DNA of 47,644 nt from positions 1-47,644 of the forward strand of contig SUVR01000015.1 of NCBI GenBank assembly GCA_015061915.1. The letters run 5' to 3'. The position numbers were made by a program, and so were the translations under genes. This document shows positions 22,850-29,117 of this stretch, piece by piece (positions within the stretch are counted from its first letter, which is position 1; every line of letters starts with the position of its first letter). Below the pieces are notes generated by a model. The model saw only the letters and a program-made list of their open reading frames with translations. It made no database searches and was not told where the DNA came from. This stretch comes from Lentisphaerota bacterium. Lineage in GTDB: Bacteria; Verrucomicrobiota; Lentisphaeria; Victivallales; UBA1829.

Positions 22850-24037
22850 TCAGATCAATTTGTATCCGGCTTGAGCCAGACGGGCTTTGATCTCGTTCAA
22901 CTGCTGAAAATCTCTTGTTTCCATTTTGATATGGAGAAAACAGCCGATGATATCAGCGTGTTCACCGCCGGGATCGTGCCGTACCTGAATGACATTTGCT
23001 CCGCAGTCTGCAATGATGTCGGAAACATCCCGCAACTGACCGGGCTTATCCAGCATGGCGATCTTCAACTCCGCCACTCTGCCGCTTGAGAGCAAGCCCC
23101 GGTTGATGACCCGTGAAAGGATATTCACATCAATATTGCCGCCGGAGACCACGGCACAGACATTTTTTCCGGCGAGGTCCAGTTTCTTTGCCAGTACAGC
23201 GGCAACACCAACCGCACCGGCACCTTCGGCAACCAGTTTCTGTTTTTCCATCAAAGTCAAAATGGCAGTGGCGATCTCATCATCGCTGACCGTAACGATG
23301 CCGTCCACATATTTGCAGCACAAATCTCTGGTGAGCGTGCCGGGGGTTTTTACGGCGATACCATCGGCAAAAGTGGAAACTTTTTCCAGCGTAACGCCGT
23401 GTTTTTCGGCAAATGCTTTGCACATCCCCGGCGCGCCTTCGGCTTGCACGCCGTAAACTTTACACGCGGGATTCAGCTGTTTCAGCGTGAACGCCACTCC
23501 GGAAACCAATCCGCCGCCGCCCACGGGAACGAGGACGGTGTCGACTTCCGGATACTGCTCCAGAATTTCCAGGGCAATCGATCCCTGCCCGGCGATCACA
23601 TCTTCATCATCAAAGGGATGAACAAAGATGCTGTCGTGTTCCTTGCAATATTTTTCCGCCGCCAGATAAGCGTCATCGTAAACGCCGTCCACCAGATGGA
23701 CTTCCGCGCCCAGTTTTTTGGTTGCTTCCACCTTGGATATGGGCGCAATGCTGGGCATGAAAACGACTGCTTTCCGATGCAGTTTTCCTGCCGCCAGCGA
23801 GACGCCCTGCGAGTGATTGCCTGCAGAACATGCCACGATCTCTCTGCCGTCCTGCGGCAGGTTGGCGATTTTGAAGAATGCGCCCCTCAATTTGAAGGAC
23901 CCGGTGAGCTGTAAATTTTCCGCTTTCAAACGCAGTTGACAATCATCGGTCAAACCGTTGCTTTCGATCATGTCGGTATAGCGCGCTACGCTCTTCAACA
24001 AGTGACTTGCCTTGTAAACTTTATCCAGCGTCAGCAT
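22850..24037 (-). CDS. ilvA: Threonine ammonia-lyase with C-terminal ACT domain
   Basis: A 395-residue PLP enzyme turning threonine into 2-oxobutanoate, the first step of isoleucine synthesis. [14 protein letters not shown] gives the PLP lysine (Lys49); VGGGGLVSG is the phosphate-binding loop. The C-terminal residues about 320-395 form one ACT domain, the short form also seen in TdcB-like enzymes with ACT. It begins within the last seven bases of ilvD, with AGGAG upstream, and closes the operon before the shared terminator. Its position with ilvBNCD supports a biosynthetic role. Confidence 0.93.
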
Positions 24038-25659
24038 AGTTTTGCTCCTTTGTCTGCCGATGAGACCAGCGCCGCATAACGCTTGAGATAGCCGGTCAGC
24101 TGCCGTTCTGGGGAAAATACTTTCTTTGCCCGTCTTGCCGCCAGGGTTTCATCATCCACCAGCAGTTCCAGCGAGTAATCCGGGATGTTGATCCTGATCC
24201 GATCGCCTTCCTCCACGAGCGCGATGGTACCGCCGGAAACGGCTTCGGGCGAGATGTGTCCGATCGCAGCGCCTCTGGTCGCACCGGAAAATCTGCCGTC
24301 GGTGATAAGCGCCACATCTGCATCCAATCCCATTCCGGCGATAGCACTGGTGGGGGAGAGCATTTCCCGCATACCGGGACCACCGGCAGGACCTTCGTTG
24401 CGGATCACCACGCAATCGCCTTTGACGATCTTACCGGACAGGATCGCTTTGACCGCATCCTCTTCACACTCAAAGACGCGGGCTTTGCCGGTAAACCGGA
24501 GCATCTCTTTGCGCACAGCGCACCGTTTGACGATCCCGCCGTCCGGAGCAAGATTTCCATAGAGGACCGCCAAACCACCTTCGTCGGCATAACGCTGAAT
24601 GACCTCCCGGTCTTTGACTTCTGCGTTGGCAATGAGTTCACCAAGCGTCATACCGGAAACGGTCGGGCAATCCAGGTTCAGCAGGTGAGAAACTTCTTTC
24701 ATCACAGCCGGAACGCCACCGGCACGGTGAAGATCCTGCATATGGTGCTTTCCTGCGGGGGCAAGGCGACACAAATTGGGTGTACGGGCGCTGATCTCAT
24801 TGACGGTGTGCAGATCGAAATCCACTCCGGCTTCCGCAGCGATGGCAGGCAGATGCAATGCGGTGTTGGTGGAGCAGCCCAGTGCCATATCCACGGTCAA
24901 CGCATTGTGAAACGCTTTCGCCGTCAGGATATCACGGGGGCGGAGATCGCGCTTGAGCAGCTCCATTGCCTTCATTCCGGCGTGTTTGGCGAGATGGATC
25001 CTCTGCGAATAAACCGCCGGGATCGTTCCGTTTCCGGGCAGCGCTATGCCGATCGCCTCGCAAAGACAATTCATACTGTTGGCAGTGAACATACCGGAAC
25101 AGGAGCCGCAGCCGGGACAGCTGGAACACTCGACTTCCGCCAGTTCCGCTTCATTCATTTTTCCGGCATTGACCGCGCCTACCGCCTCAAAGACCGAGTT
25201 CAGATCCCTGCCATCCAGCGAAAGCATAGGTCCGCCGGACACGAAAACAGAGGGCAGATTGCACCGTGCCGCCGCCATCAGCATACCGGGGACGACTTTA
25301 TCGCAGTTCGGGATAAAAACCAGCGCATCAAAACAATGGGCTTTGACCATACATTCGATGCTGTCAGCAATCAGTTCCCTGGAAGCAAGAGAGTAGTGCA
25401 TACCATCGTGCCCCATAGCCAGTCCATCGCAGACAGCAATGGTGTTGAACTCCATGGGGGTACCGCCGGCAGCAAGGACGCCATCTTTCACTGCTCTGGC
25501 GATCTGCTGCAGATGTGCATGACCGGGGACGACTTCGTTAAAACTGTTGACCACCCCGACCAGCGGACGCTTCATCTGCTCCGGGGTGTACCCCAGCGCG
25601 CCAAGCAAAGCACGCTGGGGGGCGGCAGATACTCCTGTTGTCAGTTTTTCGCTGTTCAT
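24031..25659 (-). CDS. ilvD: Dihydroxy-acid dehydratase
   Basis: A 542-residue Fe-S enzyme converting 2,3-dihydroxy acids to 2-keto acids in valine and isoleucine synthesis. Cluster cysteines appear in [10 protein letters not shown] (Cys77), [10 protein letters not shown] (Cys119) and [10 protein letters not shown] (about 181-187). [18 protein letters not shown] is the family signature. The ATG at 25659 ([10 protein letters not shown]) overlaps the ilvC stop by one base (TAATG), indicating re-initiation by the same ribosome; a TTG further upstream is less likely. It overlaps ilvA by seven bases at its end. Confidence 0.95.
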
Positions 25660-26648
25660 TATTTGTTCCAATTCATTTTCGCCCGGAGTTCCGCTCCGAC
25701 AGTTTCCAGCTGGTGTGCTTTGGCGGCTTCACGCTGTTTGGTGAAAAGGGGTCTGCCATCGGCATTTTCCTTCAGCCATTTGCGTGCGAACGTGCCATCC
25801 TGGATCTCGGCAAGGACCTTTTTCATCTCGGCTTTGGTGGCATCGGTGATGAGACGGTGTCCGGTGTTGTAATCGCCATACTCGGCAGTATCGCTGATGC
25901 TGTAACGCATAAAGGAGAACCCGCCTTTGACAACGAGGTCGATGATCAGTTTCATTTCGTGGATGCACTCAAAATAGGCGCTTTCCGGCTTGTATCCGGC
26001 TTCTACAAGCGTTTCAAAACCAGCCTGCATCAATGCGGTAACGCCGCCGCAGAGGACCGCCTGTTCCCCGAAAAGGTCGGTTTCCGTTTCTTCCCGGAAA
26101 GTCGTTTCCAGGATCCCGGCACGACCTGCACCGAGACAGGCGGCATAAGCAAGCGCCAGATCCATGGCATTACCGGAAGCATCCTGCTGAACCGCTACCA
26201 GACAGGGAACGCCTTTGCCTTCAACGAACTGACTGCGCACCGTGTGTCCGGGACCTTTGGGGGCGATCATAACCACATTGACAAAGTCCGGCGGCACGAT
26301 CTCTTTGAAGTGAACGTTGAAGCCGTGGGCGAAACTCAAGGTCATGCCCGGACGCAGATTATCTTTCACGCCGTTTTCGTAGATGGAACGCATTTTTTCA
26401 TCATTGACCAACATCATGACCCAGTCGGCTTTTTTGACGGCATCGGGCGTATTGAGGACTTCAAAGCCATCCGCTTTTGCGACCGCGGCGCTTTTGGAGT
26501 TCTCGTAAAGCCCGACCACCACGTTCACGCCGCTGTCCCGCAGGTTTTGTGCGTGGGCATGGCCCTGGCTGCCGTAACCGATCACGGCGACCGTCAGGTT
26601 TTTCAGGAGTTCACACTTGCAGTCACAGTCATAATACATCTTGCTCAT
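25659..26648 (-). CDS. ilvC: Ketol-acid reductoisomerase
   Basis: A 329-residue class I enzyme that isomerises and reduces acetolactate or acetohydroxybutanoate with [25 protein letters not shown] is the nucleotide loop; the catalytic Glu and Asp lie in the knotted C-terminal domain ([14 protein letters not shown]). The N-terminus has an unusual [11 protein letters not shown], where most relatives have acidic residues. AAGGAAA precedes the ATG, and the stop overlaps the ilvD start. Confidence 0.95.
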
Positions 26649-26695: not shown

Positions 26696-26944
26696 TTATT
26701 GTCCGGAGTTGCTCAGAAGAGCAACGTTTTTTACATCAAAGAGTTTCCGCAACTGACGCGCCATCTGCCGCTGGATCGCGGTATCGCCCCGGGAGACGAT
26801 CCGCATAACGGAAAGGGTGGGATCGCCAGTCTCATGAACCGTGAGGCTGTCAATGTTATACTTCCGTTTTGCATACAGCCCGGTGATCCGGTTCAGGACC
26901 CCGCAATGGTTTGCGACTTGCAGTTCCACGATAAAACGTTCCAT
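26696..26944 (-). CDS. ilvN: Acetolactate synthase small (regulatory) subunit, short form
   Basis: An 82-residue protein consisting only of one ACT domain ([35 protein letters not shown]). It binds valine or a related effector and activates the large subunit. Small subunits are commonly 160-170 residues, although E. coli IlvN/IlvM-type ones are near 90-95, so this is a minimal form without the C-terminal domain. The ATG at 26944 has AAGGAGAA upstream, and the gene begins just past the ilvB stop. Confidence 0.9.
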
Positions 26945-26945
26945 T

Positions 26946-28604
26946 TTATTTCTCCTTTGTTATGATCAGATCTTTCACACTTCCGCCGGGGGGGATCATA
27001 GGCAGCACAAATTCATCCATATCCAGCTGACAATCCAATACGGTGGGGCGATCCTCCGCCAGATTCTGCAGGGCGGCATGAAGTCCGGCAAGATCGGTTA
27101 TCTTCTTTCCCTCCGCCCCGAACGCTTGCGCCAGAGCGGGGAAGTCCGTTTTCCGTTTCAGCGTGGTCTGAGAGTAATGTTTTTCATAAAACATAGTCTG
27201 CCACTGGCGCACCATTCCGAGGACGCCGTTATTGAAGATCACGATCAGCAGGGGCAGATTTTGCGAGACTGCCGTTGCCAGCTCCTGTAAACACATCCCG
27301 AACGAGCCGTCACCGGTGAAAAGCACGGTCCGTTTCCGGTCGTTTGCGATACAGCCGCCGATGGCTGCGCCGAGCCCGAAGCCCATAGTGCCGAGACCGC
27401 CGGAAGTCAGCAAAGTCCGGGGCAATTTGAACGGGAAATATTGCATGGTCCACATCTGATGCTGTCCCACATCGGTAGCGATGACCGTATCATCGGAGCA
27501 ATAGGAGGCGACCGTTTTCAGCAGGGTCCGCGGCGTCAGAGCCTGTTCCACCGGCAGGGAATCCAGCTTTTTGGCATTGCGGACCGCTTCATCCCAATCC
27601 GGACGGGGCTGAACCGGCAGAACCGCAAGGAGTTTTTTCAAAACATCCTTCACATCACCGCACAATTCGATGTCTGCGGCGGCATTTTTACCGATTTCTG
27701 CGTTATCAATATCCACATGGATGATCTTTTTTCCGTTCCGGTAGCGGGCGACATTGCCGGTGGCACGGTCAGAAAACCGGACGCCCAGCGCCAGGATCAA
27801 ATCGCACTCATCCTGAACACGGGCAGAACTGCGGGAACCGTGCATACCACACATTCCGAGATTCCGTTTATGATCCCGCGGGAGGGCAGTCAACCCCATC
27901 ATACTGAACGCCACGGGCGCAGAAAGACGGTCTGCCAGAAGCGCCAGTTCTTCGCTTGCACCGGAAGCGACGACTCCGCCGCCCGCATAGATCATGGGGC
28001 GTTCTGCTTCATTCAGTGCGGCGAGAGCGTCCGTCAGATCCACTTCCGGCAGCGGCTTGAAGAACAGATCCTGCGGGAAGAATTCCGAATCATCGCAAAG
28101 ATCTGTCTGGATGCTTTTCGGGATATCCACCAGCACGGGACCGGGTCTGCCGGAAACAGCGATTTTGAATGCAGCATCCAGCACGCCGGAAAGCTCCCGG
28201 ACATCGCTGACCGCAAAATTGTGCTTGACGATCTCCTGCGTGATCCCTACGATGTCGACTTCCTGAAAGCTGTCCCGTCCCAACAGGGGAACTGCCACAT
28301 TACCCGTGATGGCAACCAGCGGCACACTGTCCAGATAAGCATTGGCGATCCCGGTCACCAGATTGGTCGCGCCCGGACCGCTGGTGGCGATGACCACACC
28401 CGGTTTGCCGGTCACCCGGGCAAAACCATCCGCCGCATGAGCTGCGTTCTGCTCGTGAGCGCACAACACATGGTTGATGCGGTTGGCGTTCTTGTACAGC
28501 TCATCGTAAATGGGCAGGACTGCACCGCCCGGATAACCGAATACCGTTTGAACACTGTTGCGGCATAATGCCTCAATTACAATGGCTGCTCCTGATCGTT
28601 TCAT
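26946..28604 (-). CDS. ilvB: Acetolactate synthase large (catalytic) subunit
   Basis: A 552-residue TPP enzyme that condenses pyruvate with pyruvate or 2-oxobutanoate. AHEQNAAHAADGFARVTG holds the catalytic Glu51; GDGSFGM followed by NNGVLGM (about 430-458) is the TPP/Mg motif. It is the first structural gene of the operon. Its ATG at 28604 lies 28 bases beyond the second intrinsic terminator of the leader, with AGGAAAG upstream. Expression therefore depends on reading through that hairpin. Confidence 0.95.
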   Translation of the reverse strand: MKRSGAAIVIEALCRNSVQTVFGYPGGAVLPIYDELYKNANRINHVLCAHEQNAAHAADGFARVTGKPGVVIATSGPGATNLVTGIANAYLDSVPLVAITGNVAVPLLGRDSFQEVDIVGITQEIVKHNFAVSDVRELSGVLDAAFKIAVSGRPGPVLVDIPKSIQTDLCDDSEFFPQDLFFKPLPEVDLTDALAALNEAERPMIYAGGGVVASGASEELALLADRLSAPVAFSMMGLTALPRDHKRNLGMCGMHGSRSSARVQDECDLILALGVRFSDRATGNVARYRNGKKIIHVDIDNAEIGKNAAADIELCGDVKDVLKKLLAVLPVQPRPDWDEAVRNAKKLDSLPVEQALTPRTLLKTVASYCSDDTVIATDVGQHQMWTMQYFPFKLPRTLLTSGGLGTMGFGLGAAIGGCIANDRKRTVLFTGDGSFGMCLQELATAVSQNLPLLIVIFNNGVLGMVRQWQTMFYEKHYSQTTLKRKTDFPALAQAFGAEGKKITDLAGLHAALQNLAEDRPTVLDCQLDMDEFVLPMIPPGGSVKDLIITKEK

Positions 28605-28632: not shown

Positions 28633-28665
28633 ATAAAAAAGCCCCACCGGTTTTCCGGCAGGGCT
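28633..28665 (-). terminator. Second leader terminator (T2) directly before ilvB
   Basis: Read leftward, AGCCCTGCCGG (28665-28655) pairs with CCGGTGGGGCT (28650-28640) around AAAA, followed by TTTTTT (28639-28634). A strong intrinsic terminator between a promoter and the first structural gene fits an attenuator. The stop codon of the second leader peptide lies 28 bases upstream. Confidence 0.85.
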
Positions 28666-28693
28666 CGTTGAATTTTCTTCTTTGCTTCTGTTT

Positions 28694-28897
28694 TTATACC
28701 ATGCCGGGCGATTCAATCGGGATAATAATAATCTGAATGAGAATCACAAAAATAATGAGGGCAAGGACGGAGACCGGAGTAAGAAGGAGGGCAGAGGAAG
28801 AGACAACAGCAGAAGAAACGGACACGCTCTGTGCCGCTTTCTGATTTTTATTTTCTCTGATCATCTTCTTCATCATCTTCAAACCCCAAATTGCCAT
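28694..28897 (-). CDS. Second branched-chain-rich leader peptide (LP2)
   Basis: A 67-codon reading frame whose last third is packed with Ile, Leu and Val: SALLLTPVSVLALIIFV then ILIQIIIIPIESPGMV. Such a run just before an intrinsic terminator resembles the IlvL and IvbL leader peptides of enterobacteria. The chosen ATG at 28897 is preceded by GGAGAGG at a distance of 11, which is the 3' arm of the first terminator, so folding of T1 could hide its ribosome site. Later ATGs (28876, 28873, 28864) give shorter versions. A small membrane protein is the alternative. Confidence 0.6.
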   Translation of the reverse strand: MAIWGLKMMKKMIRENKNQKAAQSVSVSSAVVSSSALLLTPVSVLALIIFVILIQIIIIPIESPGMV

Positions 28898-28900
28898 AAA

Positions 28901-28937
28901 CAAAAAAACCTCTCCGGGCTGACTGCCTTGGAGAGGT
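28901..28937 (-). terminator. First leader terminator (T1)
   Basis: Read leftward, ACCTCTCC (28937-28930) pairs with GGAGAGGT (28915-28908), with an inner GGC/GCC pair around a small loop, followed by seven T. It lies after the first leader peptide and before the second. Its 3' arm is the probable Shine-Dalgarno of the second peptide. Confidence 0.85.
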
Positions 28938-28965
28938 CTCAAAAATCTTTTCCGATTCAGTAATC

Positions 28966-29055
28966 TCAACAACAGCAACCAGCCATCCCGCAGCCGATAA
29001 TTACGGCGACGGTAATAAGAATAATGCTGTTAATGTTGTTGAAAAACTGTTTCAT
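28966..29055 (-). CDS. First branched-chain-rich leader peptide (LP1)
   Basis: A 29-residue peptide starting MKQFFNNINSIILITVAVII and ending GCGMAGCCC before TGA. Ile, Leu and Val make up nine of the residues between 8 and 20, and three Cys codons precede the stop. ATG at 29055 follows GAGAAG and lies 27 bases after the predicted transcription start. Stop lies 28 bases before T1. Leader-peptide function is inferred from composition and position; a cysteine-sensing role is possible. Confidence 0.7.
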   Translation of the reverse strand: MKQFFNNINSIILITVAVIIGCGMAGCCC

Positions 29056-29088
29056 TTTTCTTCTCGTAATTTTGTTTTCGTTGCAACT

Positions 29089-29117
29089 AATATACCATGT
29101 TCCCGAAAATTTGTCAA
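29089..29117 (-). promoter_or_regulatory. Strong sigma70 promoter of the ilv operon
   Basis: Read leftward, TTGACA (29117-29112) and TATATT (29094-29089) are separated by exactly 17 bp. The -35 is a perfect match and the -10 is preceded by TGG. It would start near 29082, some 480 bases before ilvB, leaving room for the two leader modules. Confidence 0.85.

Follow-up and report, generated by a model that had tools for sequence, protein, structure and literature searches.

What does RNA polymerase meet between the promoter and the first structural gene of the ilv operon in this gut Lentisphaerota bacterium: one regulatory decision or two, and if two, are they linked? A sequence-only reading of the locus had proposed two leader peptides in tandem, each followed by a terminator, with folding of the first terminator coupled to translation of the second peptide. 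We analysed the locus within the whole stretch of DNA, referred to here as the window (SUVR01000015.1, positions 1 to 47,644, 47,644 nucleotides; Lentisphaerota bacterium, GCA_015061915.1). Leader and operon all lie on the minus strand and, read 5' to 3', the leader comprises a promoter, the first leader peptide (LP1), the first terminator (T1), the second leader peptide (LP2), the second terminator (T2) and then ilvB.

The promoter (29089..29117), TTGACA-17-TATATT with an extended TG, has 11 of 12 consensus matches, bearing out its earlier description as near-consensus, and a TTGACA/TTGACT-16/17-TATATT element also lies upstream of LP1 in most relatives. The genes that follow are ilvB, encoding the 552-aa large subunit of acetohydroxyacid synthase (AHAS; 26946..28604, start at 28604; Pfam TPP_enzyme N/M/C), a gene for an ilvN/ilvM-type AHAS small subunit of 82 aa (26696..26944; ACT_AHAS_ss), ilvC for ketol-acid reductoisomerase (25659..26648; KARI_N, KARI_C), ilvD for dihydroxyacid dehydratase (24031..25671; ILVD_EDD), and ilvA for a threonine deaminase-type PALP enzyme with an ACT domain (22850..24037; Pfam). 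Since all five are supported by their Pfam domains, the name ilvBNCDA given to the operon was correct.

Taken from sequence comparison and folding models, the leader very probably contains two classical ribosome-mediated transcription attenuators in series before ilvBNCDA. The classical attenuators of E. coli ilvGMEDA, ilvBN, trp, his and leu have one module each, and this is the textbook model; relative to that single leader, the novelty here is best read as two stop-or-go switches in series, each with its own peptide. The modules had been called translation attenuators: attenuation stands, but the wording was loose, as the anatomy is that of ribosome-mediated transcription attenuation with intrinsic terminators.

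The ORF scan and conservation define both peptides. LP1 (28966..29055) has 29 codons, with an Ile/Val run at codons 11-20, and reads MKQFFNNINSIILITVAVIIGCGMAGCCC up to its stop. LP2 (28694..28897) has 67 codons from its first ATG, contains Leu, Val and Ile control codons, and reads MAIWGLKMMKKMIRENKNQKAAQSVSVSSAVVSSSALLLTPVSVLALIIFVILIQIIIIPIESPGMV up to its stop; alternative internal ATG starts are possible at 28876, 28873 and 28864. When ATG frames of 12-80 codons were scanned on both strands of the whole 47.6-kb window, only LP1 and LP2 (the latter also from its internal starts) contained at least eight Ile, Leu or Val per 10 codons. Among dinucleotide-shuffled versions of the leader (n=3000), one such Ile/Leu/Val-rich ORF appeared in 0.2% and two in none. 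LP1 of the window contains 6 Ile, 2 Val and 1 Leu, and LP2 11 Ile, 8 Val and 7 Leu, with Leu-Leu-Leu at codons 37-39. These codon counts suggest that both modules read one set of amino acids, Leu being more frequent in the window LP2, and each frame is short, translatable and furnished with a cluster of codons for products of the pathway, as in ribosome-mediated attenuators.

Translation of the leader frames is supported by in-phase distances between CCGG boxes and by their Ile/Val-rich middles. Across 14 species the box-to-box distance in LP2 takes 7 values, from 72 to 96 nt, all of them multiples of 3, and in the same species set the spacing from the LP2 stop to T2 is spread over all phases; the window LP2 is without the first box. 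The middles of the leader peptides differ in length and order among species yet remain Ile/Val-rich. Codon position 3 is just mildly more variable than positions 1 and 2, and such a weak excess is expected because RNA pairing constrains the ends of the peptide frames.

In module 1, folding, shuffles and covariation all identify the T1 hairpin (28905..28940, U-tract to about 28898). Its energy is -20.7 kcal/mol (z -5.4; 0/200 shuffles equally stable), and on the alignment it is 94.3% paired, with 4 pairs showing changes on both sides and a count of double-change cells that 0/500 shuffles reached. The final LP1 codons and stop form segment 2, the switch arm (GGCUGGUUGCUGUUGUUGAG, 28965..28984; folding and alignments), which has two alternative partners. 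One is segment 1, the 5' arm of a protector, immediately 5' of the Ile/Val codons (CAACAACAUUAACAGC, 29026..29041; RNAalifold and alignment); the other is the T1 5' arm plus loop, where segment 3, the antiterminator 3' arm within T1, is placed by alignment pairing (CUCUCCAAGGCAGUCAGCC, 28917..28935). Segment 1 is nearly invariant across the module 1 alignment, and the RNAalifold consensus found the protector, in which segment 2 pairs with CAACAACAUUAUCAGC (in the window the version given above), unprompted. The protector is clear in the consensus and in the window fold, and for several species the antiterminator still forms when the leader is not translated.

The module 1 antiterminator (AT1) has energies of -21 to -31 kcal/mol across species, and 97.8% of its cells are paired over 14 species, against 11-58% with the partner slid. 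Among these 14 close species AT1 shows no double-sided changes, and in some of them, the window included, the duplex is not stronger than letter-shuffled partners (window z -0.3). In the strongly diverged relative G111, both arms have changed and pairing is retained (CUUUGCUGUUG with CGGCGGUAAAG).

Module 2 is built in the same way. The T2 hairpin (28639..28666, U-tract to about 28633; folding and shuffles) has an energy of -21.7 kcal/mol (z -5.2; 0/200 shuffles equally stable). Its switch arm, segment 2, lies at the LP2 end (CCGGCAUGGU, 28698..28707; folding and alignment), and segment 3 is the T2 5' arm (GCCCUGCCGG, 28655..28664; alignment pairing). The module 2 antiterminator (AT2) joins the LP2 end, CCGGCAUGG, to the T2 5' arm, CCCUGCCGG; on the alignment 99.3% of cells are paired, against 19-44% with the partner slid, and energies run from -14 to -23 kcal/mol across species. 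The protector of this module is a clear 9-pair helix in G111 and is weak in the window. Hairpins with U-tracts thus stand upstream of the first structural gene in both modules, and the positions first proposed, T1 at 28901-28937 and T2 at 28633-28665, were right to within a few bases.

We then asked how far this arrangement is kept. A search of genome contigs for IlvB retrieved 14 Lentisphaeria MAGs at 77-82% identity that included the ilvB start, plus two truncated contigs. In 13 of the 14, LP1, LP2, T1 and T2 stand in the same order upstream of ilvB; the remaining one (L034/G100) has retained module 2 alone. G111, whose IlvB is 62% identical, has both modules, strongly diverged. LP1 is kept in all 13 aligned relatives having module 1, and in G111, and LP2 in 14 aligned relatives. 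The possibility that the leader frames are not conserved in relatives was examined in the upstream DNA and did not hold: the comparative alignment showed that the frames, the terminators and the mutually exclusive pairings are conserved in both modules. With peptides and terminators conserved, and an antiterminator belonging to each module, there is strong support for the proposal that two peptide/terminator modules stand in tandem upstream of ilvB. The anatomy read from sequence is that of a tandem attenuator in which both modules are complete and either occurs alone in some genomes.

A covariance model of module 1 matched 17/137 genomes of the order and 12/388 genomes drawn from the phylum, all of them from family f4 plus the window's own genome, and the module 2 model matched nearly the same set. 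The sister species, in the same genus, dropped out of the comparison: its contig breaks inside ilvB, and its genome gave no match to either model.

To follow the switch, we folded the emerging leader with the ribosome front at each codon in turn, withholding the final 11 nt of the terminator as if still unemerged. In these simulations, in both modules and in every species, the antiterminator formed with the A site in the Ile/Val(/Leu) run and was lost once the ribosome was within the last ~7 codons. Folding and alignments thus give each module an antiterminator that excludes its terminator and that a ribosome positioned at the frame's 3' end can block. With no ribosome, neither antiterminator formed in the window, which predicts termination of leaders that are not translated; for several relatives the folds predict that module 1 pairs its antiterminator even in the absence of translation. 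Folding to equilibrium with the whole terminator present was rejected as a display of the switch, the terminator outcompeting the antiterminator almost everywhere. The switch must therefore be kinetic (co-transcriptional), and the model rests on kinetics, as is typical of known attenuators. Swapping switch arms between close species did not separate own from foreign partners, because these arms are nearly identical there.

Under the model of two attenuators in series, a ribosome would translate an Ile/Val-rich leader peptide in each module (in the window LP2, also Leu). When charged tRNA is scarce it would stall in the run, and the exposed 3' part of the peptide frame would capture the 5' arm of the terminator that follows, allowing RNA polymerase to read on. 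When charged tRNA is plentiful, the ribosome would reach the stop codon and cover the switch segment, and the terminator would form; for LP1, pairing between segments 1 and 2 could close the switch arm in the absence of translation. As T1 and T2 lie in series, RNA polymerase would have to pass both to transcribe the operon; two similar sensors would then form an AND, expected to multiply repression and make the response steeper.

The conserved arms also bear on readings that dispense with attenuation or with one of its modules. LP1 and LP2 are hydrophobic and conserved, as small proteins with their own function might be, the hairpins then being ordinary terminators between short genes; yet conservation tracks the RNA pairing arms (the FNNI..S and AGCCC ends of LP1, the PPG end of LP2), the peptide middles vary in length and order, and the terminators hold arms complementary to the frames, which leaves this reading highly improbable. 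We give almost no credence to control by a known riboswitch or T-box with incidental peptides: T-boxes are common regulators of ilv genes in Firmicutes, but at gathering and relaxed thresholds Rfam yielded nothing relevant for the window leader or for any leader tested from its relatives and from clostridia, no family reaching threshold and the best sub-threshold match, T2 against PyrG_leader, falling far below the cut-off. That one module regulates while the other is left over from an older leader and decaying could be argued from the single-module leaders, namely L034/G100 with module 2 only and L123 and L130 with module 1 and a broken LP2, which indicate that single modules are tolerated. 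Both modules are nevertheless intact in the window, in 13 relatives and in G111, with pairing constraint in both, and we therefore consider a leftover very unlikely.

More room is left for the two modules to differ in what they read or to depend on each other. LP1 may respond to Ile/Val and LP2 to Leu/Val/Ile, which would make the leader a two-input gate instead of one sensor doubled. The residue counts of the window peptides point this way, as does the Leu-Leu-Leu run, where a simulated stall still freed the antiterminator; seven Leu codons, three of them consecutive at an antiterminator-freeing site, make a leucine input plausible in this genus. In relatives, however, both peptides are mostly Ile and Val, with just about 1-2 Leu in LP2, and we consider a difference in the amino acids read less likely than not. 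The sequence-only reading had further suggested that GGAGAGG in the T1 3' arm (28909..28915) is the ribosome site of LP2, so that T1 folding would hide it and module 1 would set both read-through and translation of module 2. In the window this is possible: LP2 starts 7 nt past the T1 hairpin, and GGAGAGG lies 11 nt from its ATG and may act as a Shine-Dalgarno sequence in this genome. One relative (L044) has the same layout at 7 nt, with LP2 starting 5 nt past T1. The placement is not conserved, though, since the distance from T1 to the LP2 start is 21-115 nt in 12 of 14 leaders, and only in the window and L044 does LP2 start near the T1 3' arm; T1-dependent initiation of LP2 is therefore not a property of the system. 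Moreover, the internal ATG starts of the window LP2 would not need GGAGAGG, and other purine-rich stretches lie upstream of LP2 in several relatives. We accordingly regard a coupled two-step device as unlikely, and rather more so its combination with distinct inputs, in which module 1 would read Ile/Val, T1 would hide the module 2 ribosome site and module 2 would read Leu/Val/Ile. If true, such a hierarchical gate would subject the operon to two sequential, linked decisions; a literature search found no such device for a biosynthetic operon.

The preferred reading, two attenuators acting in series, has partial counterparts among known systems. The classical E. coli attenuators and a recent case, Listeria Rli60 before ilv-leu (PMC5864092), likewise have, upstream of a biosynthetic operon, a peptide rich in the amino acids that the pathway makes and an intrinsic terminator that excludes an antiterminator, but with one module, whereas here two complete modules with unrelated pairing sequences lie in series on one transcript. 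Salmonella mgtCBR has tandem attenuators, mgtM and mgtP, presented as a singular example; it senses ATP and proline, and its stem-loops are unlike intrinsic terminators, the authors suggesting Rho (PMC3641672). Both leaders contain two short frames, each a ribosome-mediated attenuator (here by anatomy), but mgtCBR is not a biosynthetic operon, whereas the modules described here have intrinsic terminators and appear to read the operon's own products. In the msrD macrolide-resistance operon, two attenuators form a 'double-lock' (PMC10314930), with leader-peptide stalling preventing an intrinsic terminator, as predicted here, although stalling there is drug-induced and not set by amino-acid supply. 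ErmB induction also involves two peptides in one leader, ermBL and ermBL2 (PMC8274638), but this is translational attenuation of a resistance gene with no terminator pair. Tandem T-boxes, whose modes of action a review calls unknown (PMC7583486), and tandem riboswitches similarly have serial sensors upstream of genes of amino-acid or other metabolism, but bind tRNA or metabolite directly by RNA, with no leader peptide. In some Gammaproteobacteria the rimP-leader has an additional terminator further upstream, and an antiterminator is possible for one of the two (PMC2965389); it shares two tandem terminators in one leader, but without described amino-acid leader peptides. A pair of leader-peptide attenuators in series upstream of an amino-acid operon was not described in the literature searched, which left most subscription journals outside, nor was leader-peptide attenuation in the window's phylum, where this leader would now document it by prediction.

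As to origin, the window IlvB shares about 44% identity with those of its own family, about 80% with those of family f4 genomes and 93% with that of the sister species, and in the ilvB tree it groups with f4 operons in a starred clade. It is therefore probable that leader and operon came as one unit from family f4, or are shared with it. The wider IlvB clade consists mainly of clostridial and Treponema gut bacteria, most of which have a single, different leader peptide, often ending LRCA. In Peptococcaceae UBA6096 (L056:4520-5000, DIWW01000024.1), two clostridial-type ilv attenuator modules lie in tandem upstream of ilvB, with peptides MFLAMTSNIAIIIISMIIRDRAILRCAG and MDLLNC...IDIIMISITILGSALWRCADRGS, each ended by a stop, and an antiterminator and terminator in each module. 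With this independent tandem, stacking probably arose at least twice on the ilvB tree. The module 1 and module 2 models each weakly match the other module, which might reflect a common origin by duplication, but Ile runs, hairpin and U-tract could also produce such a cross-match.

The presence of both modules together in about 16 Lentisphaeria genomes, and of the Peptococcaceae tandem, suggests that stacking has been selected as a way to make control tighter or steeper. Genomes that naturally carry both modules, module 1 only or module 2 only are ready-made constructs for asking whether attenuators in series multiply.

Several further observations were made on these leaders. The LRCA(D/E)-type single ilv leader peptide is widespread in gut Clostridia and Treponema (L046-L110; for example L053, L066, L069 and L080); it matched no Rfam family at the loci tested and seems to represent a leader family not yet described. 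In L123 (1501-1960) and L130, where module 1 and the LP2 start remain and the LP2 3' end and T2 are lost, the leader precedes an apparent LysR-type regulator gene, not ilvB. One contig (G129:C170) carries two tandem leaders, L116 and L128, about 8 kb apart, with an ilvB match of just 185 residues after the first, which may reflect duplication or a chimeric assembly (the bin is 6% contaminated). L036 and L038, from two species, have identical sequence in module 2 (about 180 nt before ilvB), from the middle of LP2 up to the start of ilvB, and differ in module 1, through either recombination or assembly mixing. In G091 (L074:489-3007), a single diverged module 1 precedes genes that by eye are cupin/HTH-like and acyl-CoA synthetase-like, followed by ilvB and then ilvA, without ilvC or ilvD between; in L034, too, ilvA comes soon after ilvB. 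Finally, Ile is encoded by AUU at 14/17 codons of the window leaders (28694-29055), and by AUC at 101/145 in the neighbouring genes.
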